Source of the DNA: Deltaproteobacteria bacterium GWB2_55_19
GTDB lineage: Bacteria > Desulfobacterota > GWC2-55-46
Length of the DNA: 64,000 bases
Assembly: GCA_001797465.1 (NCBI GenBank)
Contig: MGPQ01000010.1
Span: forward strand, 310,001 to 374,000
Reading direction: 5' to 3'
Part shown: piece after piece, positions 5,529-60,259 of the stretch
Layout: each line of letters begins with the position of its first letter
Numbering within the stretch: the first letter of the stretch is position 1
The notes under the pieces: model-generated
What the model saw: the letters and a program-made list of their open reading frames with translations, nothing else
Databases searched by the model: none
What the model was told of the DNA's origin: nothing
Position numbers and translations under genes: made by a program

Positions 5529-6278
5529 ATGGAGAAGGTCACCGTAACCATAGTCGCCCTGAACGAGGAGGACTACATCGGCGACTGCCTCGAGAGCGTC
5601 TCCTGGGCCGACGAGATCATCGTCTCGGACTCCGGCTCGACCGACAGGACGGTCGAGATATGCCGTTCCCACGGGGCGAAGGTCTTCTCGGACAAGTGGC
5701 TGGGCTTCGGGGGGCAGAAAAACCTATGCGCCGGGAGGGCCGCCCATGGATGGATACTTAACCTCGACGCCGACGAGAGGGTGACGCCGGAGCTTAAGTC
5801 CGAGATTAGAGATGTCCTGGAGGGGCCGGACAAGGACGGATATCATATTCCGAGGAAGAATTATCTCGGAAAGGTCTGGATAAGACACTGCTGGTATCCG
5901 GACTATACGCTCCGCCTTTACAGGAAGGAGAGAGGCGCTTACACGAATAAATGCCATGCCTCGGTAGTTGTCAAGGGGCCCGGCGGACGCCTCAAAAATC
6001 CTCTAGTCCACCTCTCATACAGGGACATTACGGATTACATGGAGCGGCTTCAGAAGTATTCCACCCTTGCCGCAAAGGATATGCTTGAGGAGGGGCGGGA
6101 GGCCGCGGTCGCGGACCTTGTTTTGAGGCCCCAGGCCGCCTTTTTGAAGATGTACGTAATGAAACGGGGTTTCCTTGACGGGACGCTCGGTTTTATCCTA
6201 TCCCTCCTTAACGCCTACTACACGCTGGCAAAGTACTCCAAACTCTGGGAAATGAAAAGGGGAAAGGCCGCGTCTTGA
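5529..6278 (+). CDS. GT2 glycosyltransferase, WaaE/KdtX-like
   Basis: This 249-residue single-domain GT-A enzyme has VTIVALNEEDYIG, SDSGSTDRT and the metal-binding LDADER motif. LSWADEII-like and WLGFGGQKN segments are characteristic of the WaaE/KdtX subfamily, which adds a beta-1,4-glucose to heptose I of the LPS core. No membrane segment precedes the catalytic domain, and a C-terminal amphipathic region may bind the membrane. It follows the Trm112-like gene by 6 nt. About 180 nt separate it from the next gene, with a hairpin between, so it may close the first transcription unit. Confidence 0.83.
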   Translation: MEKVTVTIVALNEEDYIGDCLESVSWADEIIVSDSGSTDRTVEICRSHGAKVFSDKWLGFGGQKNLCAGRAAHGWILNLDADERVTPELKSEIRDVLEGPDKDGYHIPRKNYLGKVWIRHCWYPDYTLRLYRKERGAYTNKCHASVVVKGPGGRLKNPLVHLSYRDITDYMERLQKYSTLAAKDMLEEGREAAVADLVLRPQAAFLKMYVMKRGFLDGTLGFILSLLNAYYTLAKYSKLWEMKRGKAAS

Positions 6279-6346
6279 AGAGAGGCTACCCCGGCCCTAA
6301 CGCTTTGATTTAACTATGAAATCCGCTGGCAAGGGGGCCGGCTACG

Positions 6347-6379
6347 GCGCCTTGCGCTTAAGGCGCTTCTCTTGCTTTT
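6347..6379 (+). terminator. Weak intrinsic terminator candidate
   Basis: A 7-bp GC-rich stem (GCGCCTT/AAGGCGC, loop of 6) at 6347-6366 is followed by the pyrimidine-rich TTCTCTTGCTTTT. It lies between the WaaE-like gene and the next heptosyltransferase gene. The U-tract is interrupted, so efficiency is doubtful. Confidence 0.4.
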
Positions 6380-6462
6380 AGGCCTTTGACAGAGTACAAT
6401 ATCCCGGATCGGATATTCGGCCTCAGGCGTATCGTTCAGAGGTCAATCGGAGAGGCGCGCGC

Positions 6463-7659
6463 GTGGAATTCAAGGGCGTAAACAAGATACTTATACTGAA
6501 GCTCCGGCTCATCGGAGACGTGCTCCTCACGGTCCCTGTCATAAAGGCCCTGAAGGGGGCGTTCCCGGGGGCGCGCATATCCGTGCTCGTAAACTCCGGC
6601 ACCGAGGAGATGCTCACAGAGAACCCTCTAATCGACGAGATAATCGTCTTTGAGAGGGGGCTTAAAAAGGCCGCGCTCGCCAAGAGGGTAAAAGGGGAAC
6701 TCCGGCTCGTAAAGGAGCTCCGCAGGCGCGGCTTTGACATGACCGTCGATCTTACGAGCGGAGACAGGCCCGCGCTCCTCGGTTTTATGACAGGCGCGAG
6801 GTACAGGCTCGGCTTCGACCCGGCAGGCAAGGGCTTTGCCGGGAAGAAATACCTCTATACGCATCTGGCGAAGAGGCCGAGGCTCAAGCACGTGGTCTTA
6901 CGCGATTTGACGCTCCTGGAGGCCTTCGGCATAGGCAGGAAGGGCCTCTCGATAGATATTTACACCTCGCCTTCGGATGAGGCCTTTATGGAGAGGCTCC
7001 TCAAGGAGGCGGTCTGCTCGAATTCCCGGTTCGTCCACGTCCACCCCACGGCCTCTGAGTTCTACAAGTGCTGGACGGACGAAGGCATGGCTCAGGTAAT
7101 GGACGCGATTGAGGGCGCGGGTTTGAGGGCTGTCGTCACCTCAGGCCCCGCCCAAAGGGAGCTTGATATGGTCGCCTCCATCTTAAGCCGCATGAAGACG
7201 AGGCCAGTCGACCTCTCCGGGAGGCTGGGGTTAAAGCACCTGGCTGTCCTCTCCAGGCGCGCTGTTCTTTTTTTCGGGGTGGACACCGCGCCCATGCACA
7301 TAGCCGCGGCGGTCGGCACCCCGGTAGTCGCGCTCTTCGGGCCGAGCGGCGCCTTTGACTGGGGGCCGTGGGACAACTCGGAGAACTCAAGGCCGGGCAA
7401 GGGCTTCGGCGGCGACGGGGAGGCCTCGATCCAGTCGCCTTATACGGAGTTAAGGGGCGTGCAGACCTCGGGCGCGCATACGATCATACAGAGGGGCTGG
7501 GAGTGCGTCCCGTGCGGGAAAAAGGGGTGCAAGGCCTCCGGCAAAAGCGACTGCCTCGCGGACTTGACGGCCGAAGAGGTGAGAGCCGTCATCATCGAAA
7601 GGCTTAAAGTACCGGCGTACAGGGGGGCTAAGGTAATACCGTTTCGCGGTACGCGTTGA
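6463..7659 (+). CDS. GT9 heptosyltransferase, WaaQ-like
   Basis: This is a 398-residue GT9 protein, longer than WaaC because of an insert of about 40 residues before the final cysteine cluster. The N-terminal ILILKLRLIGDVLLTVPVI most resembles WaaQ (heptosyltransferase III). The C-terminal half has VDTAPMHIA and ALFGPSG, then ECVPCGKKGC...C. The start is a GTG at 6463, with CGGAGAGG about 7 nt upstream. It probably transfers heptose or a related sugar to the inner core. It is the second of four GT9 genes in the cluster. Confidence 0.85.
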   Translation: MEFKGVNKILILKLRLIGDVLLTVPVIKALKGAFPGARISVLVNSGTEEMLTENPLIDEIIVFERGLKKAALAKRVKGELRLVKELRRRGFDMTVDLTSGDRPALLGFMTGARYRLGFDPAGKGFAGKKYLYTHLAKRPRLKHVVLRDLTLLEAFGIGRKGLSIDIYTSPSDEAFMERLLKEAVCSNSRFVHVHPTASEFYKCWTDEGMAQVMDAIEGAGLRAVVTSGPAQRELDMVASILSRMKTRPVDLSGRLGLKHLAVLSRRAVLFFGVDTAPMHIAAAVGTPVVALFGPSGAFDWGPWDNSENSRPGKGFGGDGEASIQSPYTELRGVQTSGAHTIIQRGWECVPCGKKGCKASGKSDCLADLTAEEVRAVIIERLKVPAYRGAKVIPFRGTR

Positions 7660-51062: not shown

Positions 51063-51225
51063 CCGTACATTGTAATACCAATATCCTTTAAAAACAAGCC
51101 GTTTTGCAAGGCATGAGCGCTCGGGCAGGTTAAATTTAGTTGCATTGAACGGTCTTTGGGGATAGAATGTCATCGTCAGACAACCCCTTAAAAATAAATC
51201 AGCCGTTTTACGGAAGGCCGGCCAA

Positions 51226-52743
51226 ATGAAGAGAATACATTTGCTATTTACAGGTCTTTTCGTAATGCTGTTGTTCGTCCTCGCTGCCCCTTCCGTTGCC
51301 GTCCAGAAAAATCCTTTGGACCTCACGCCCGGGATCGTTGACCTCAAGGATGGCAATTACGAGGAGGCTACGGAGTTCTTCAAGTCAATAAGGGAGAAAG
51401 ACCCGGAATCGTCTCTGGCCGCCTACTACCTCGGCCTCGCTTATGTGAAGGGCGAGGACTATCTGTCGGCGAAGCCGCACCTTAAGGACGCTATAACCCT
51501 TTCGCCGCGCGTCAGAGAGGCGGTATTTGAGTTTGCGGAGGTCTTATACCAGCTCGGCGAGCATGGCGAGGCGCTCTCGGTGATAGGTGTCGCCGAGAGC
51601 GAGGGGATCGAGTCTGCCCGCGCGTCGTTCCTTAAAGGGCTCACCCTTATAAAGTTAAAAAGGCCCGATGAGGCGATAGAGGCATTCAGGAAGGCGAAGT
51701 CGCTCGACGGGTCGCTTGCAAGCTCTGCCGACTACCAGACGGCGATAGCCTCCGTGCAGGCCGGGAGGCTCGGGGAGGCGAAGGAGATGTTCAAGGACCT
51801 CGCCGCAAAGGACCCGAACGCCGACGTCGCCGAGTCCGCCCGGGAGTACATAAACGCGATCTCGAAGAGGCAGAAGGATGAGCGGCCGTTGAAGCTCAGG
51901 GCTGGTGTCGAGTACCAGTTCGACGACAACGTCCTCCTTAAGCCCGCGGACGCGTCGGTCGCCGGGGACATAACAAACGAGTCCGACAGCGTCTTTGTCG
52001 CGTCTTTCAGCGCCGACTATGACTTCAAGCTCCAGCTCCCGTACAGCCTTAAGGCCGGGTACTCGTTCTACGCCAACACCCACGCCTCATTGGAGACGCA
52101 CGACATCCAGAGCCATTCGTTTTCAGCGACCCCGGGGATGAGCTTCAGGAGCGGCCAGGCGAACCTCTACGCCGGGTACACATACACCCTTGTCGACGGG
52201 GACAAGTACCTCCAAGCCCTCACACTGTCCCCGGCCTACACCTTCCCGATAAACGAAAGGCAGTTCGCCCAGGCGTCCGTCAGGTGGCAGGTGAAGGACT
52301 ACCTCGATTACACGGCTGGCGTAGGCGCGGACGAGGACAGGGATTCATGGGACTACGGCGCGGGTGCGTCCTGGTTCTATCTGCTATTGGGCGGCAAGGG
52401 GTTCGTTAACGGACGCTACGACTTCAACTATGAGGCGACAGACGGCGCCAACTGGGCGTACTATGGCAACAGGTTCGGGGCTAGCGTCTATTATCCCGTC
52501 ACCGAAAAGCTCGGGCTGAACGTCAGCGTGGAGGAGTACCTCCAGTCCTTCACGGATACGCACACGGTCTTCGGCGTTGAACGGGAGGACACGACACTCA
52601 CCTTTTATACGCTCCTCACGTACCCCCTCTACGACAGCCTGGACCTGAAGGCCCAGTACCTCTACATCCGGGGGGATTCAAACATCTCGATATACGATTA
52701 TTCGAAGAACGTCTACGGGGTCGGGGTGGATTTCAGGTTCTAA
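51226..52743 (+). CDS. TPR protein with C-terminal outer-membrane beta-barrel
   Basis: This 505-residue protein has a signal peptide (about 1-25), four or five tetratricopeptide repeats (GNYEEATEFFKSIREKDPESSLAAYYLGLAYV onward, to about residue 205), then a barrel-like C-terminal 290 residues of alternating aromatic/polar strands, ending in VGVDFRF with the terminal Phe favoured by BAM substrates. It is likely an outer-membrane pore or scaffold with periplasmic TPRs. It is first in a three-gene run with a FecR-domain protein (25 nt gap) and a CHASE2 cyclase (92 nt gap). Confidence 0.83.
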   Translation: MKRIHLLFTGLFVMLLFVLAAPSVAVQKNPLDLTPGIVDLKDGNYEEATEFFKSIREKDPESSLAAYYLGLAYVKGEDYLSAKPHLKDAITLSPRVREAVFEFAEVLYQLGEHGEALSVIGVAESEGIESARASFLKGLTLIKLKRPDEAIEAFRKAKSLDGSLASSADYQTAIASVQAGRLGEAKEMFKDLAAKDPNADVAESAREYINAISKRQKDERPLKLRAGVEYQFDDNVLLKPADASVAGDITNESDSVFVASFSADYDFKLQLPYSLKAGYSFYANTHASLETHDIQSHSFSATPGMSFRSGQANLYAGYTYTLVDGDKYLQALTLSPAYTFPINERQFAQASVRWQVKDYLDYTAGVGADEDRDSWDYGAGASWFYLLLGGKGFVNGRYDFNYEATDGANWAYYGNRFGASVYYPVTEKLGLNVSVEEYLQSFTDTHTVFGVEREDTTLTFYTLLTYPLYDSLDLKAQYLYIRGDSNISIYDYSKNVYGVGVDFRF

Positions 52744-52768
52744 GGTCTTTTAATAAAGAGGTCCCGCC

Positions 52769-55465
52769 ATGTTTATGAAAAAGACTTTTACTGGTTCGTT
52801 CAGAAAGGCATACGGGCTGGCCGCCGTCATCGGGGCCGTATTCCTTTTTATGCTGTGTTCGGCCCTCACTCACGCCGCGCTCGCCGCGGAGGCGGGTCCG
52901 GCGGATGTAGGTTATATCTCGAAGATAGAGGGCAAGGCGGATATAACGAGGGCCGGGTCGGCACAAGCCGTCCCGGCGCGCCAGGGCGACAAGGTCTTTG
53001 TAGGGGACGTCGTCCGCACAAAGCCCGGGTCCAAGGCCGAGCTGACCTTTAACGATAAGACGGTAGTAAGGCTCGCGCCGGAGACCAGAATAAAGGTGGA
53101 CGAGTACCTCTTCAACCCCGAAGGCGGCAGGAAGAAGGCGTCTTTATACCTCTTCAGGGGCAAGGTCCGCGGGGTCGTCTCCACCTTCAAGAAGAAGGTC
53201 ATACCGGTCTCCATAAGCGAATCGACCTTCAACATTCAGACGCCAACGGCTATCGCCGGCGTCCGCGGCACCGACCTCTTCGTATTTTACCTGAGGGGGA
53301 CTACGGGTGTCGTGTTCAACGACGGGCTCGGTTTCGTGTATAACCCGAGGCTCCCCGGTCAGGTGGTGGACATAAGGGCCGGGCAGTCGACCTTTATCCT
53401 CCATCCCGAGGCCCCGCCACTGCCCCCGAAGCGCTCGCTCAATATCGAGTTCCTGAAACATTCCTCCGACACCGCGATTGAGAACGGCGGTGAGAACGGC
53501 ACAAACGGTGAGACTGAAGGCGGGGAAGAGCCCGCCTCCGGCGATGAGGGGACGGTTGTGACCGCTGAGGCGGACTCCGGCGAAGGCGAGGCGGACGATA
53601 ACGGCATAGCGTCGCTCGACGAGACCGGGTCTGAGTCCTTCGATGACGACGAGGGCGAGTTCGACTCATCCTCCTCCCGCTCTCTCTCGGCCCTGACAGA
53701 AACCGGGGGGACGATTGACGACGCTACTGAATACACTGACTTGCAACCCATAAGCGAGACGAGCGAAGTGGCGCTCGAGACCACCGAGGCGCCAACGGTT
53801 ACTGTCTTATCTTCGAGCCTCGGTGGTTTCATTAGGAGCCCTGATGCCGATCTTGACGTTCAGGGGGCCGTAGCGTTCAGTTCCGGCGAGACCGCCGGGG
53901 AGTGGTACTACGATATCGCCGGCTGGGCCGGCTCCCCGCCTGACAATGGGACGATCACGATGGGCGGCTCGGGGCAGGCCGACTCATCGTCAAGCACAAC
54001 GACAGGCTATTGGATATCCTTCATGGACGGGAGTTACTCCAACGGCATAATGTCCGGGGCCGGCGCTTTCTATTACCTGACGGGGACATCGTTCATTTCG
54101 GGTGATGGGACGGTGAACGGTACTTATGATTCGACGGGCTCGTTCAGCGGCTCTGCCGCAGGTACGGCGACCGAGGACGACCTTGCGTTCGTCACCGTCT
54201 TATACAGCCCGGGGCTTTTGAGCGGTTTCATGGGAGGGACCTCTTCCATCTGGGGTACAAGCCGGTCTTCACCGGCCTACATGGTCATGATAGGCAGATA
54301 CTTGGGCGGCATAACGCCGAGGCTCTGGCTGAACCAGAACGCCTTCAGCCTTAACTTCGGCAACAGCACTTACACGACCTACGACGGAGGGGCGTTCTTC
54401 GGGTACTCGGGGATGCTCGCCGCCGAGGGGTCCGCGAACTCCAGCCTTTACGCCCTGTATATAGACCCGTCCGGGAATGCAGGCGTAGCTGTGGGCAGTC
54501 TCTCCGGCTTGTTCCATTACGAGAGCGGCATGATGAAGATGGAAGGGTCCGTATTCCCGGCGCTGATAAGGGCGGACGCCTTTATCCCTTACACCGCGTC
54601 AAACCTCTTGAGCAACATCTCCAGCGCGAGTTATCAGAGCTCGGTTGCCCCTGCGTATCCGGCGATATACGGCGCCGCGTCCAGCTTCACCGGTAGTTCG
54701 TCCTGGGACATCTCCACGAGCTCCATAGCCGGGCAGGACTGGGGCATACTGGAATCGATCGGCAACGGGACTTATACAAGCTCAGCCCCGGTTTCAGGGG
54801 CCCTGACGCTGGACTTCTACAACGACGGCTTTAATTCTTCGACGATGATAGCCGGGGCGAGGGGAGACCTCACTGTCGGCGTGGGCAACACCATCACCGG
54901 GGGCTTCGTCGGCTATGGGGCCGGGCAGGATTCCGCCGCCTCGTGGATAAGCGCGGGCAGTTTCCTCGGGACGTTCTCGCCCGCGTCTTATACCTGGCAG
55001 TCGATACAGACGGGCGCGTGGATAGAGACGAGCCTCTTTATCGCCATGACGCAGACAGCCGCGGGGCAGGCCTCTTTGCAGGCCCTTGACATCCCGTACG
55101 CCGAGGTTGGAAGGGCAAACCTCACAGGCACCGACGGGAACCTCACGGTCAACATGAACGACGTCACCTTCTTCGCCTATTCGAGCGGCGCGGCCGCAAA
55201 GATATGGGCTACGAATAACATCTCGGGCTCTTATGTGACCGACCCGCTCGCCGGCGCCTCTGTGGCCCTATCCGGCAACGGGCTTTCGTCGAGCTTCAAT
55301 GTGAAACAGTGGTCAACTAACACCTGGCTCTCGTCGGTATCCGGCGCCGGGACTTACTCCGGGACCGGCACGCTCAACGGCTCCTCGGTCAACATGGTAG
55401 GCGCCGCGGCCGGGACCTACTCCGGGGGAACGTTCTCCGGCACCGGGGCCGGGGCGGCCTACTGA
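52769..55465 (+). CDS. Secreted FecR-domain protein with long Gly/Ser/Thr-rich C-terminus
   Basis: This 898-residue protein has a long signal peptide (about 1-40), a FecR domain at about 50-215 (VGYISKIEGKADI, GDVVRTKPGSKAELTF, NDKTVVRLAPETRIKV, TPTAIAGVRGTD), an acidic Ser/Glu/Gly linker at about 235-320, and some 560 residues of repeated short strands rich in GS/GT/SG steps that look like a beta-solenoid or adhesin-type region. No membrane helix follows the signal. FecR domains in such proteins are periplasmic or surface modules linked to signalling. It sits between the barrel and cyclase genes. Confidence 0.85.
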   Translation: MFMKKTFTGSFRKAYGLAAVIGAVFLFMLCSALTHAALAAEAGPADVGYISKIEGKADITRAGSAQAVPARQGDKVFVGDVVRTKPGSKAELTFNDKTVVRLAPETRIKVDEYLFNPEGGRKKASLYLFRGKVRGVVSTFKKKVIPVSISESTFNIQTPTAIAGVRGTDLFVFYLRGTTGVVFNDGLGFVYNPRLPGQVVDIRAGQSTFILHPEAPPLPPKRSLNIEFLKHSSDTAIENGGENGTNGETEGGEEPASGDEGTVVTAEADSGEGEADDNGIASLDETGSESFDDDEGEFDSSSSRSLSALTETGGTIDDATEYTDLQPISETSEVALETTEAPTVTVLSSSLGGFIRSPDADLDVQGAVAFSSGETAGEWYYDIAGWAGSPPDNGTITMGGSGQADSSSSTTTGYWISFMDGSYSNGIMSGAGAFYYLTGTSFISGDGTVNGTYDSTGSFSGSAAGTATEDDLAFVTVLYSPGLLSGFMGGTSSIWGTSRSSPAYMVMIGRYLGGITPRLWLNQNAFSLNFGNSTYTTYDGGAFFGYSGMLAAEGSANSSLYALYIDPSGNAGVAVGSLSGLFHYESGMMKMEGSVFPALIRADAFIPYTASNLLSNISSASYQSSVAPAYPAIYGAASSFTGSSSWDISTSSIAGQDWGILESIGNGTYTSSAPVSGALTLDFYNDGFNSSTMIAGARGDLTVGVGNTITGGFVGYGAGQDSAASWISAGSFLGTFSPASYTWQSIQTGAWIETSLFIAMTQTAAGQASLQALDIPYAEVGRANLTGTDGNLTVNMNDVTFFAYSSGAAAKIWATNNISGSYVTDPLAGASVALSGNGLSSSFNVKQWSTNTWLSSVSGAGTYSGTGTLNGSSVNMVGAAAGTYSGGTFSGTGAGAAY

Positions 55466-55557
55466 TAATAATAAGCGCGCTTCTTTAAGGCGGGCGGCCC
55501 CGGCGGCCTCCCTGCCTTCGGGGAGCCCTTTCTTAAAGGCCCCGCCCTCAAGGTCCT

Positions 55558-57783
55558 ATGAACCGCCTGAAAACCATCTTCTACACGATAACCGGCCTTA
55601 AGGTCGGCCTCCTCGCCACAGCCGTCTCCGTCCTCATATACATCATCCAGGTGCCGTTCTTTCAGGAAATAGACCTCAAGGCCTTTGACTTTCACTTCAA
55701 ATCCAGGGGCAGGGTCGAGCCGACCGGAGAGGTCGCTATCGTCGCCATCGACGAGAAGAGTCTGGACGCGTTCGGCAGGTGGCCCTGGCCGAGGACCAGG
55801 ATGGCCGAACTCGTAAGGAAGCTGAATGCCATGTCCCCCGCGGTCATAGCCTTTGACGTCGTCTTCTCGGAGCCTGACGAGAGCTCCGGGGCCGCGGTAT
55901 TCAGGAAGCTCCGCCGGGATTTGAGCGGGGCCGACCCGCGCCTCGCCTCTATCCTTAAAAAGGCCGAGGCAGACGCTGACAACGACAGGGCGCTCGCCTC
56001 CGCCCTTGAAGGCACTCCGGCGGTCCTCGGTTACTTCTTCTTTACAGGGGACGAGGTCTCCGGGCCGGTTCAAAAAGACAAGGCATACCTGATACCGTCC
56101 CGCTTCGCGTCCATCAGGCAGATAGGCGCGGAGGAGCCGAGGTTCCAGGTGCTCGGCGCAAGCGGCGTGACTGAAAACATCCCGGTCATCGCCGGGTCCG
56201 CGGAGAACTTCGGTTACTTCAACATAGTCCCGGACAAGGACGGGACCGTCAGGTGGGCGAACCTCGTCATAAGGTACGGAGAGGAGTTCTATCCGCATAT
56301 ATCCATAGAGGCGATAAGGCGTTACGCGGACTCCCCGCCCCTCCTCCTGAACGTCGCCGAATACGGGGTGGACTCTATTAACATTGGGGGCGTGATAGTC
56401 CCGACCGACGAGAACGGGCGCCTCCTCATCAACTACCGCGGCGGCCCGTTCACGTTCCCGCACTACTCCGCCGCCGATATCATGGCTGGCGGCGTGCCGG
56501 CTGAGGCGATAGAGGGGAAGATCATCATAATCGGCGCGACCGCCACGGGCATCTACGACATGAGGGTCACGCCTTTCGCCGGGACCTTCCCGGGGGTCGA
56601 GGTCCTCGCCAACGCCATCGATACAGTCATAAGCGGGGACTTCATTTACAGGCCGGACTGGATACTCATCTTCGACCTCCTCTCGATAATAATACCCGGC
56701 GCCCTGCTCGCAACCGTAATACCGAGGGTCTCCGCGCTTTTTACGGCGCTCTTCGCCATGGTGATGGTGGCCGCCTACATCTTCGCCAACCACTACGTCT
56801 TCACGCACCTGAAACTCTGGCTGACGGACATATATCCGGTCTTTACCATAGTCTTCGTCGCGTCATCCACCACGATATTCCAGTTCGTCTCTGAGGAGCG
56901 GAAGAAAAAGGAGATAAGGGAGGCATTCTCGCGCTACGTCGACCGCTCGGTCGTAAACGAGATAATAAAGAACCCGGGGCTCTTAAGCCTCGGGGGCGAG
57001 GAAAAGACATTGACCGTGCTCTTCTCCGACATCCGGGGCTTCACGAACATCACGGAAAAGCTCAAGCCCAATGTCCTCGTAAAGCTCATGAACGACTACC
57101 TGACCCCCATGACCGACGTGATCTTAAGGAACTGCGGCACCGTGGACAAATACATGGGGGACGCCATAATGGCCTTCTGGGGGGCGCCTCTGCCGCAGGC
57201 GGACCACGCCGTAAGGGCGTGCAGGACGGCGCTCGAGATGGAGCGGACCCTCACGGAGACGCAGAAGACCTGGGACAAGCCCGGCATACCGAGGCTCGTC
57301 TCCGGCATAGGCCTGTCCACCGGAAAGGCGGTCGTCGGCAACATGGGGTCTTCCACGCGCTTCGACTATACAGTCATAGGCGACGCCGTCAACCTCGGTT
57401 CGCGCCTCGAAGGGCTGAACAAGGAGTATGGGACGAACATAATAGTCCCCAAATACACCTATCTTGCGGCCCAGGAAGAGTTTGCCTTCAGGGAGCTCGA
57501 CATCGTAAAGGTCAAGGGCAAGGACCTCCCGATAAAGATTTACGAGCTCATGGGGGACAAGAAGGCCGCCGTGGAGCTTAAGGAGTTAATAGACCTCTTT
57601 GAAACAGGGCTTAAGGCTTACAGGGCCAAGGCATGGGCCATGGCTGAAGAGTATTTCGGGCATGTCCTTGAGCTGAGGCCCGAGGACGGGCCATCCAAGG
57701 TCTATCTTTCGAGGATAAAGGTGTTGAGAGACTCCGAACTCCCGGACTACTGGGACGGCGTCTTTGTAATGAAGACAAAGTAA
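55558..57783 (+). CDS. CHASE2-domain class III adenylate/guanylate cyclase
   Basis: This 741-residue inner-membrane protein has TM1 near 16-32, a periplasmic CHASE2 sensor at about 35-370 (VAIVAIDEKSLDAFGRWPWPR, IAFDVVFSEPD, NYRGGPFTF, IIIIGATATGIYD), three further TMs at about 375-450, then a class III cyclase domain. Catalytic residues are all visible: metal-binding D491 (LFSDIRGF) and D535 (MGDAIMAF), base-selecting K531 and D603, and transition-state N612/R616. The K/D pair favours ATP, giving cAMP. A short helical tail (TPR-like) follows. It is the third gene of the barrel-FecR-cyclase group. Confidence 0.93.
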   Translation: MNRLKTIFYTITGLKVGLLATAVSVLIYIIQVPFFQEIDLKAFDFHFKSRGRVEPTGEVAIVAIDEKSLDAFGRWPWPRTRMAELVRKLNAMSPAVIAFDVVFSEPDESSGAAVFRKLRRDLSGADPRLASILKKAEADADNDRALASALEGTPAVLGYFFFTGDEVSGPVQKDKAYLIPSRFASIRQIGAEEPRFQVLGASGVTENIPVIAGSAENFGYFNIVPDKDGTVRWANLVIRYGEEFYPHISIEAIRRYADSPPLLLNVAEYGVDSINIGGVIVPTDENGRLLINYRGGPFTFPHYSAADIMAGGVPAEAIEGKIIIIGATATGIYDMRVTPFAGTFPGVEVLANAIDTVISGDFIYRPDWILIFDLLSIIIPGALLATVIPRVSALFTALFAMVMVAAYIFANHYVFTHLKLWLTDIYPVFTIVFVASSTTIFQFVSEERKKKEIREAFSRYVDRSVVNEIIKNPGLLSLGGEEKTLTVLFSDIRGFTNITEKLKPNVLVKLMNDYLTPMTDVILRNCGTVDKYMGDAIMAFWGAPLPQADHAVRACRTALEMERTLTETQKTWDKPGIPRLVSGIGLSTGKAVVGNMGSSTRFDYTVIGDAVNLGSRLEGLNKEYGTNIIVPKYTYLAAQEEFAFRELDIVKVKGKDLPIKIYELMGDKKAAVELKELIDLFETGLKAYRAKAWAMAEEYFGHVLELRPEDGPSKVYLSRIKVLRDSELPDYWDGVFVMKTK

Positions 57784-57814: not shown

Positions 57815-57854
57815 AGACAAAGGGCCGGTCTCGTACGAGACCGGCCCTTTGTCT
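57815..57854. terminator. Perfect 40-nt palindrome, bidirectional terminator
   Basis: The sequence from 57815 to 57854 is a perfect 20+20 inverted repeat centred on GTAC (core GGCCGGTCTCGTAC). It lies 30 nt after the CHASE2 cyclase stop and reads as an AAAGGGCC/GGCCCTTT stem with T-rich flanks on both strands. It likely ends the cyclase transcript, and possibly read-through from the convergent radical SAM gene. Confidence 0.8.
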
Positions 57855-57927
57855 GTTTATAGCCCCCTCTCCCCTTGTGGGAGGGTGCGGAGTGTTAGGG
57901 AATTTTTTTTAGGTCTGATATCCCGTT

Positions 57928-57960
57928 ACGCGGGTTCAGGTTTGCAACCTGAACCCGCGT
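57928..57960. repeat. Perfect 15-bp hairpin, family shared with 28912-28940
   Basis: ACGCGGGTTCAGGTT and AACCTGAACCCGCGT flank a TGC loop. The central TTCAGGTTTGCAACCTGAA is identical to the 28.9-kb copy, and the outer stem differs by paired changes. Confidence 0.75.
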
Positions 57961-57977
57961 AAGACACAGCGTTGATA

Positions 57978-58100
57978 TACGGAGCGTCAGAACAAAGCAG
58001 ACCAAGGCGCGACAAAGGCGAGGAGGGAGGCGTACGCCGTTGTACGCCGCAGTGACGAGCCGAGGAGCAACGCAGGTATGCGAAGTTATGACGCTCCGTA
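57978..58100. repeat. 123-bp element bounded by 12-bp inverted repeats with internal hairpin
   Basis: TACGGAGCGTCA (57978-57989) and TGACGCTCCGTA (58089-58100) are perfect inverted ends. Inside, GGCGTAC-GCCGTT-GTACGCC (58029-58048) forms a further hairpin, and GAGGAGGGAGGCGTACGCC and GACGAGCCGAGGAGCAACGC stretches look like REP-type intergenic elements. It abuts the stop codon of the radical SAM gene (58102). Confidence 0.65.
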
Positions 58101-58101
58101 C

Positions 58102-59799
58102 TTATAACCCCATCTTCTTCGCTATTATCTCAAGCTCTTTGGGCCTTCCCTCGGCTATGATCTTATCCCTCAACTCCTCGGGAGAGTGCTTGAACCTGCT
58201 CTCGACCTGTTTTCTGTAAAAAGTCCCGTTGTAGGCGCAGAACGGATAAAGGCGGCCCTTGGGGTCCGGGTAGTGGATGACGCACCTCATGACGCGCTCC
58301 ACGCTGAAATTGTATCCGTCCATGAAGTGCATCCCGGCTATGAAGAAGTTCGAATGGAAACGGTCCTTTGACGCGGCGCCGCTCGACTGGGTCTTTCTCA
58401 AGCTCCTGTCCTGGTAGCCTTCGAGGCTTTTCAAAAACTTTTCGAAGGTCAGCCCCTTTGGGGCCTTCTCCTCGTTGAAGTGCTTTTTGAGTTTGTAGAG
58501 TATCTTTACCTTCGAGAGGAGGTCGAACCTCGACGGCTTCACTGTCCTGGAGAGCTCGATCAAGTCCTTCAGGAACGGGAGCATGTCGAGGAATTCGCTT
58601 ATGGGTTTTACGGAGCCGTCCTCGCCTATGTAGAAGTAGGTCCCCTGCGAGCAGTGCGGATGGAGCGAGAGGGTGAAGGCCGGCTTGCCGCTCAGGGACG
58701 CCGCGAGTTTCGATATCGCCGAGGTGACGCCTATGGGGAACCAGTCCCGCATGACGTCTATGTAGCCGGTCTGATTCTCGATGTCGTGCGCGAGGTCGGC
58801 GAGCGTATATCTCCTCTCCAGCCTGTGGCTCTGGCTGAACCTGCCGACGAATGAGACAGGCTGAAAGGCGATGCCGCTTATGACGTCGTTGTTTTTCGCC
58901 GCGAACCTTACGATGTCGCCGACCTGGTGGTCGTTGAAGCCCTTTACGAGGGTGGCTACGAGCACTATGCCTATCTTCAATTTCCTGCAGTTCTCGATGG
59001 CGGCCATCTTGACGTCGACCAGGGCCCTCGCGCGCGTCTTTTTGTAGACGTCGTCGGTAAGGCCGTCGAACTGGAGGTAGAGGTTGTCGACCCCGGCCTC
59101 TTGCGCGGCCTCGGCAAACGCAAACTCCGCCATCTTTATGCCGTTGGTGTTGACCTGGATGTAGTCGAACTCCTTCTGCCGGGCTCTCCTTACTATCTCG
59201 AGGAAGTCGGGCCTGACCGTCGGCTCCCCGCCTGAAAACTGGACGCGGTTGGCTCGGACAGGCTTCTGGCTGGCGAGCATGTCGAGCATCCGCATGACGT
59301 CCTCAAAGGACGGCTCGTAGAGGTAGCCTGAGGCGTTGGCGTTGGCGAAGCAGACTGGGCAGGTCATGTTGCACCTGTTGGTGAGGTCAATGATGGGCAG
59401 GGCGCTGTGGCTCATGTGCATGTTGCAGAGGCCGCACTGCTTGGGGCAGACCGTCGCCTTTTTTATCGCCGGGTCTTCGATCCCCTTGCCGTCGCCGAAC
59501 CAGAGCTCCTCGCACCTGTTGTAGAGGTTCACGTCGCCGTAGAAGATGTCCTTGAAGTCCCCGTGGTCCCTGCAGGTCTTGGATATCCAGACCTTGCCTC
59601 CGTCCTCGTAGAGAGTCGCCTTTATTATCTCCATGCACTCCGGGCAGATGGAGTCTATCTCCTTCGGGAGCCCGAACTTTATCGGTTCTATCCTGGTCCC
59701 TGAGTAGGTCTCTCCGGGCTGGTCGACGAGATACGGGAGGTCTCGGCCCGTATCCGGCGTTGCCCCTGATTTGAAAAAACGCTGGAAGATCGATTCCAT
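58102..59799 (-). CDS. Tes-like radical SAM enzyme (COG1964, tetraether/membrane-spanning lipid synthase family)
   Basis: This 565-residue protein has an N-terminal rubredoxin-like pair CPEC (52/55) with C76 and C96, an extra cluster motif C118-x3-C122-x2-C125 (CPKQCGLC), the radical SAM motif C143-x3-C147-x2-C150 (TNRCNMTCPVCFANA), VQFSGGEPTVR, NTNGI and the family block LQFDGLTDDVYKKTR. More Cys lie near the C-terminus. Order and spacing match COG1964, which includes archaeal tetraether synthase Tes joining lipid tails; bacterial members may make membrane-spanning lipids. ATG 59799 follows GGAGG; the longer frame to 59940 is rejected. Confidence 0.85.
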   Translation of the reverse strand: MESIFQRFFKSGATPDTGRDLPYLVDQPGETYSGTRIEPIKFGLPKEIDSICPECMEIIKATLYEDGGKVWISKTCRDHGDFKDIFYGDVNLYNRCEELWFGDGKGIEDPAIKKATVCPKQCGLCNMHMSHSALPIIDLTNRCNMTCPVCFANANASGYLYEPSFEDVMRMLDMLASQKPVRANRVQFSGGEPTVRPDFLEIVRRARQKEFDYIQVNTNGIKMAEFAFAEAAQEAGVDNLYLQFDGLTDDVYKKTRARALVDVKMAAIENCRKLKIGIVLVATLVKGFNDHQVGDIVRFAAKNNDVISGIAFQPVSFVGRFSQSHRLERRYTLADLAHDIENQTGYIDVMRDWFPIGVTSAISKLAASLSGKPAFTLSLHPHCSQGTYFYIGEDGSVKPISEFLDMLPFLKDLIELSRTVKPSRFDLLSKVKILYKLKKHFNEEKAPKGLTFEKFLKSLEGYQDRSLRKTQSSGAASKDRFHSNFFIAGMHFMDGYNFSVERVMRCVIHYPDPKGRLYPFCAYNGTFYRKQVESRFKHSPEELRDKIIAEGRPKELEIIAKKMGL

Positions 59800-60259
59800 G
59801 AGGAAGCCTCCTTCACATTTTTCGACCGGGATTGAGAGAGGACGAGCCTGTCCCGGGTGGAAGGGCGCGTTTCTCTGCGTCTTATTGTCGGTGCGTGGAG
59901 CGAGCATGGAGAAAGAAAACAGGTTGAGACGGGGCGGCAAGCCCCTGCCGACAAGGCGGCTGATGCGCGCAACAAGATTAAAACCTATATGTCAATTCAA
60001 GCACGCTTGAAAGAAGATAAGTTTTTAAAATTGTCAAGGCCGAAAGAGGTGATGTTCTGATTTTATAGAATTTTTTTTAGTATTTCAAAGGTTTTTTTAA
60101 GCCGTCTTGAAGACCTGCCGTAGACGGCCCTCTTTTTACTCGCGTCCTCTCTAAGTCCGTGCTTGAAAGCATTGGTTTATTAGGGCTTTCTTAAGCTTTG
60201 GGCCTTAATGCCCGATATGAATGGCATGGCAAGGGGGCAGTGTGCCTTGAGTTATTGTA
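59800..60259. other. AT-rich intergenic region upstream of the Tes-like gene
   Basis: This is a gap of about 460 bp between divergent genes. GCCGTCT/AGACGGC at 60101-60128, followed by CCTCTTTTT, is a plus-strand terminator-like hairpin with no known gene before it. TTGACA-like words occur at about 60030 and 59990 on the minus strand without a good -10. No protein is supported; a short unannotated transcript is possible. Confidence 0.4.

Follow-up and report, generated by a model that had tools for sequence, protein, structure and literature searches.

A barrel, FecR-domain and CHASE2-cyclase gene unit of Deltaproteobacteria bacterium GWB2_55_19, a probable relative of the NsrA-CyaK trans-envelope signalling system

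The window analysed here is a stretch of 64,000 nucleotides (nt) from contig MGPQ01000010.1 (positions 310,001 to 374,000) of Deltaproteobacteria bacterium GWB2_55_19. The host genome has 2.6 Mb and is related to metagenome-assembled genomes of groundwater "Deltaproteobacteria". The subject of this study is a set of three genes of the window that lie in one direction and code for a TPR-barrel protein (gene 1), a FecR-domain protein (gene 2) and a CHASE2 class III cyclase (gene 3). They are separated by gaps of 25 nt (genes 1 and 2) and 92 nt (genes 2 and 3). An earlier note on this DNA had listed the three open reading frames (ORFs), the two gaps, the domains, the complete catalytic residues of the cyclase and a palindrome of 40 nt behind it, and all of these are present (Table 1). 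Purifying selection acts on the three genes within the genus, the ratio of non-synonymous to synonymous substitution rates (dN/dS) ranging from 0.09 to 0.31.

Table 1. Features of the three-gene unit and their positions in the window (aa, amino acids; E-value given for the Pfam match)
Feature	Position	Strand	Basis or remark
Gene 1, 505 aa: signal peptide, TPR domain (aa 34-218), 14-strand outer-membrane barrel (aa 222-504)	51226..52743	+	
Gene 2, 898 aa: N-terminal hydrophobic export signal, periplasmic FecR domain, low-complexity linker, large surface-protein-like tail	52769..55465	+	
FecR domain of gene 2, aa 80-183	53006..53317	+	PF04773 1.3e-12
Variable glycine/serine-rich tail of gene 2, aa 371-898	53879..55462	+	dN/dS 0.23-0.36
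Gene 3, 741 aa: periplasmic CHASE2 aa 25-374, hydrophobic membrane stretch ~aa 366-415, class III cyclase domain aa 483-664	55558..57783	+	
Candidate sigma-70-type promoter of the unit, TTGCAT - 17 nt - TAGAAT	51140..51168	+	conserved in genus
Intergenic stretch, 92 nt, hairpin-capable	55466..55557	+	folding
Palindrome, 40 nt, between convergent genes	57815..57854	.	perfect 18-bp stem, z = -8.7

The product of gene 3 matches the Pfam families CHASE2 (2e-66) and Guanylate_cyc (8e-22). Class III cyclases use two aspartates for the metals, a lysine/threonine pair for adenine, and an asparagine and an arginine in the transition state. Relative to the solved enzymes (CyaC, CyaB and others) this set is complete in gene 3 (D491, K531, D535, T605, N612, R616), which codes for the sole CHASE2 protein of the genome. 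Six cNMP-binding matches, candidates for a cAMP-responsive CRP-type regulator, are found in the genome and none at the locus. In Shinella, Ensifer and Paracoccus the unit has genes for cNMP-binding effectors as neighbours.

Gene 1 matches TPR_2 (3e-14) and, slightly below the cut-off, the C-terminal barrel family BBP2_2 (6e-5), a match shared by 17 of 20 members. Its AlphaFold2 model, with a predicted local distance difference test score (pLDDT) of 88.5, shows TPR helices followed by 14 strands, and its dN/dS within the genus is 0.14-0.19. The C-terminus resembles EpsL (8e-7) and the best Foldseek matches of the protein are BcsC and PelBC, both TPR-barrel exporters. Together with the BBP2_2 matches these similarities are what would be expected if the barrel exported a polysaccharide in the manner of EpsL, BcsC or PelB, with the FecR protein as an accessory of the matrix and cAMP (cyclic AMP) merely co-regulating the process. 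We regard this as improbable: no polysaccharide synthase gene was seen among the genes flanking the unit, and the BcsC match is low (TM score 0.33) and would suit any TPR-barrel. No genuine relative of the barrel came up when plasmids were searched with it by BLAST. Slam proteins also combine TPRs with a barrel, likewise of 14 strands. The unit was rejected as a member of this group after tests of its barrel, its TPRs and the lipobox of the partner protein. The SlipAM barrel domain is absent among the gene 1 matches listed, TPR_Slam scores 19.9 bits on gene 1 against a cut-off of 35.2, and the partner encoded by gene 2 is not a lipoprotein: no lipobox was found in it, its single cysteine (Cys30) being part of the export signal's hydrophobic core.

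The gene neighbourhood was compared in 59 related genomes by Pfam searches of whole genomes, because a FecR profile made from a handful of close sequences yielded only 12 loci and a broader seed still few. A FecR gene lies immediately downstream of the barrel homologue in 18 of 19 cases; at the 19th barrel (genome G048) a CRP-type regulator is encoded directly downstream in place of FecR. A FecR gene on the same strand was found within 6 kb of 24 of the 51 CHASE2 genes, against 0.16 expected. The earlier note had asked for this check of adjacency, and the unit proved conserved. The CHASE2-FecR pairs make up at least two gene families. The first is the barrel-FecR-cyclase unit, present in five species of the genus and in genomes G006, G008 and G033. 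In the second the order is purF, FGE-sulfatase, a small protein, FecR (~360 aa), CHASE2 cyclase, transglutaminase and a ribosomal gene, where purF and the ribosomal gene were named from recognisable sequence and not from the domain scan. The host genome itself has a second FecR locus (L143, G000:C12:104000-116000; FecR ORF at 6134-7186), with the order purF, FGE-sulfatase, a 209-aa ORF, FecR, transglutaminase and ribosomal genes; the CHASE2 cyclase found in relatives between FecR and transglutaminase is missing there. The triad was further found in Nitrospirota (L019), in other deltaproteobacteria (L050, L063), at L051, where the barrel ORF was assigned by ends near-identical with those of the L050 barrel, and on plasmid pAMI5 of Paracoccus aminophilus (L174), where the gene order is unchanged and the gaps measure 9 and 12 nt. 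All 12 genomes with a cyclase of the window type also have the barrel (Fisher 4.5e-8, a value not corrected for phylogeny and overstated because the genomes are related).

The link between barrel and FecR is far steadier than that of either to the cyclase, which lies near 8 of the 19 barrels. It could therefore be asked whether barrel and FecR protein are the true pair and the cyclase an independent neighbour whose linkage is incidental in this genus. The FecR-CHASE2 adjacency arose, however, in several separate gene families and phyla at the frequency given above, and 19 of the 24 pairs are found outside the genus. This explanation is thus in our opinion quite unlikely.

The arrangement resembles the NsrA-CyaK system (and CyaD1/CyaD2) of Sinorhizobium meliloti, which drives cAMP through a CRP-type regulator (PMC7529298, PMC13001267). 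On the assignment made below, an outer-membrane barrel with FecR domain and TPRs directly precedes a CHASE2 class III cyclase there too. NsrA is an outer-membrane barrel protein required for signal-dependent cAMP production via CHASE2 cyclases, including the CyaK-dependent response; its barrel, formed by residues 600-1200, is described as a surface receptor (PMC7529298). CyaK is SMb20776 (PMC5498481). Plasmid pSymB has a single place with a CHASE2 cyclase, which fits CyaK, and directly before it an ORF of 1219 aa in which the Pfam scan found a FecR domain, TPRs and a C-terminus of barrel size. As the plasmid record carries no annotation, we infer that this ORF is NsrA from its position before the CyaK-matching cyclase and from its size, which fits a barrel at residues 600-1200. 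The window would then hold a split NsrA-CyaK-like unit whose FecR and TPR-barrel parts are distributed between two genes. The putative NsrA ORF joins FecR, TPRs and barrel in one protein and has no passenger tail, whereas the window has two proteins and its FecR protein bears a tail of 528 aa.

We consider it fairly probable that the three genes together make up a signalling unit that spans the envelope in the manner of NsrA-CyaK, in which an outer-membrane receptor sets cAMP synthesis at the inner membrane. For its physical contacts, direction of control and signal we infer the following scheme. The TPR/14-strand barrel would sit in the outer membrane and hold the FecR-domain protein, which is possibly also exported by it. 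The FecR domain would stay in the periplasm beside the TPRs, while the variable tail is probably shown at the surface. Binding to, or occupancy of, the surface part would alter the way in which FecR and TPRs meet the CHASE2 domain that the inner-membrane cyclase has in the periplasm; the altered meeting would switch cAMP synthesis, and cAMP would then act via CRP-like proteins. The earlier note had also proposed that barrel and FecR protein control cAMP through CHASE2. The conserved adjacency of the genes and the putative NsrA beside the CyaK-matching cyclase support such control well, although in several genera the cyclase orthologue lies apart from barrel and FecR. The cNMP-binding effector genes next to the unit in other genera and the CRP-type regulator of G048 also fit the scheme. 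Several observations weigh against the scheme. The S. meliloti FecR gene smc02177, found beside cyaD1, is not needed for signal perception (PMC5498481). The likeness of gene 1 to the NsrA barrel is one of TPR and barrel architecture only. The closest relatives of the cyclase (Syntrophaceae and other deltaproteobacteria, 40-48% identical) often stand alone beside an unrelated conserved gene. The cyclase orthologues of G007, G014 and G021 lie behind the gene of a small periplasmic protein, without linkage to barrel and FecR.

The FecR domain invites comparison with FecI-FecR-FecA signalling. Besides the shared domain name, its model has the fold of the PupR cell-surface signalling domain (6ovk, Foldseek E 4e-5), which speaks for an anti-sigma factor working with a TonB receptor and an extracytoplasmic function (ECF) sigma factor. 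The unit has none of the other components: no TonB-receptor Plug domain was found in the whole genome and no ECF-type sigma match (Sigma70_r4_2) on the window contig, in agreement with the earlier note, which had seen neither nearby. Furthermore, the hydrophobic export signal of gene 2 occupies aa 11-42 with the FecR domain next, and a cytoplasmic anti-sigma segment would not fit ahead of this signal. Lack of a TonB receptor in the genome excludes classical FecA-type signalling, and we give FecR/ECF/TonB control practically no chance.

Gene 2 looks instead like the gene of a surface protein, an assignment new in the present analysis. Its FecR domain is strongly conserved (dN/dS ~0.1 within the genus) and the linker and tail evolve at ~2-6 times that value. 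The earlier note had described a secreted protein with a repetitive tail; the secreted-type export signal and the FecR domain are there, but the tail is rich in glycine and serine and is not a clean repeat array. It is replaced in relatives by Ig-like, propeller (YVTN), PKD, collagen, Big_13 and HYR repeats, and in the Paracoccus FecR protein by a tail with a TbpB_B_D match (2e-4). AlphaFold2 modelled the complete protein poorly (pLDDT 50) and only the FecR part was used for structural comparison. In addition to PupR, Foldseek matched it to the cell-surface anchoring domain of an RTX adhesin (5ix9, from MpIBP; TMt 0.76, root mean square deviation 1.2 over 64 columns). Sequence similarity to 5ix9 is weak (profile E 0.008, single-sequence 0.04), as is that to the LapA retention module NF033682 (9e-4; 19.4 bits against a cut-off of 50). 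Secretion genes accompany FecR and CHASE2 elsewhere: two-partner secretion genes adjoin the FecR-CHASE2 pair at L072 and L089, FecR is fused to NIDO/cadherin/RTX with a CHASE2 neighbour at L088, the CHASE2 cyclase follows an RTX-ABC-HlyD set at L091, and NHLP-type ABC exporters with a cNMP-binding protein adjoin the pair at L175 and L177. A text search of the literature found no paper describing CHASE2 linked with secretion systems. The fast tail, its rebuilding in relatives, the PupR and 5ix9 matches and these neighbours together suggest that the FecR protein is a surface-protein anchor and not an iron regulator, its tail being probably extracellular, at the cell surface.

The same evidence bears on a narrower version of the NsrA-CyaK-like scheme. 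The barrel would be the exporter or anchor of an adhesin-like FecR protein, the FecR domain a periplasmic plug, and the cyclase would report that the adhesin is assembled or engaged. The resemblance to the retention module and 5ix9, the tails of the relatives, and the TPS (two-partner secretion) and RTX neighbours agree with it, and LapA/RTX adhesins similarly combine a periplasmic N-terminal domain of weakly similar sequence and fold with a variable extracellular tail. Every retention-module match is however weak or below the curated cut-off, no type I secretion genes occur among the scanned genes flanking the unit, and NsrA has no passenger tail, so that a barrel of this kind can serve as receptor only. 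We hold this narrower version possible but somewhat unlikely.

Two other systems are relevant for the NsrA-CyaK-like reading. Clusters in Campylobacterota unite a CHASE2 cyclase, a phosphodiesterase, a FecR outer-membrane protein and a TPR protein, and a model cited for them holds that such modules inhibit the transmembrane cAMP enzyme (PMC9239204). They bring together the same three kinds of protein with an equal proposed pathway, which contradicts the view of the earlier note that a signalling system of these three parts had not been described. They differ by their phosphodiesterase gene; none was found beside the window unit. The BiofilmReg operon of Burkholderia also places a periplasmic FecR-domain protein beside a CHASE2 sensor (PMC5192318), but this sensor is a histidine kinase, the FecR protein has LysM, and there is no barrel gene. 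The observation made in the earlier note is sound and its guess at function largely correct, but arrangements of this kind are already in the literature, though poorly characterised. What deserves to be followed up is the reading of the FecR protein as a surface anchor.

Genes behind the cyclase were noted at several loci. In betaproteobacteria (L073, L077, L079, L082, L085, L086) a gene of ~255 aa with the conserved start GCSGGIGG, apparently one family, comes directly after the CHASE2 cyclase, and in Ensifer (L177) the gene in this place is annotated as an MBL-fold hydrolase; these are candidate cAMP phosphodiesterases. The alphaproteobacterial plasmids L174 and L175 both carry a DUF3307 gene downstream of their FecR-CHASE2 unit.

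The candidate promoter of the unit is found in five of five species of the genus, with TAGAAT invariant, TTG[CA]A kept and identical spacing. Upstream of it an AAAAC-N5-GTTTT inverted repeat (51091-51105), largely kept in the same five species, is possibly an operator or a piece of a divergent promoter. No conserved promoter was seen in the 92-nt gap when the genus was compared. The gap can fold, but its folding is not stronger than that of shuffled controls (z = 0), and strong hairpins occur in some of its equivalents in sister species without conserved sequence. A riboswitch or conserved RNA in the intergenic DNA was rejected, as the window has no Rfam match and the gap no conserved fold. 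The palindrome behind gene 3, taken for a terminator in the earlier note, is followed by a poor U-tract; its long stem nevertheless makes a bidirectional terminator probable. Beyond it lie an inverted-repeat unit (57926-57962) with more than 20 short matches in the genome and a dispersed repeat (57978-58098) with ~8 genome copies of 73-91% identity. Next to them, on the minus strand (58102-59940), is encoded a radical SAM protein that scores 550.7 bits as tetraether lipid synthase Tes, against a curated cut-off of 450, in a host genome that is bacterial.

A broader reading, speculative and in our judgement rather improbable, is that the FecR domains found next to CHASE2 cyclases serve surface proteins as plugs in the periplasm and are kin to the retention modules of RTX adhesins. 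The whole class of CHASE2 cyclases would then sense whether the held protein is assembled or has bound its ligand, be it exported by TPR-barrel, two-partner or type I secretion. If true, cAMP would be a signal of adhesion or surface contact across many phyla. The unit also cautions against taking FecR-domain proteins for iron regulators. Its split form, unlike the fusion of S. meliloti, allows barrel, FecR protein and cyclase to be removed singly. For CHASE2, to which a ligand has been assigned in very few bacteria, the recurrent outer-membrane partner provides a concrete candidate input.

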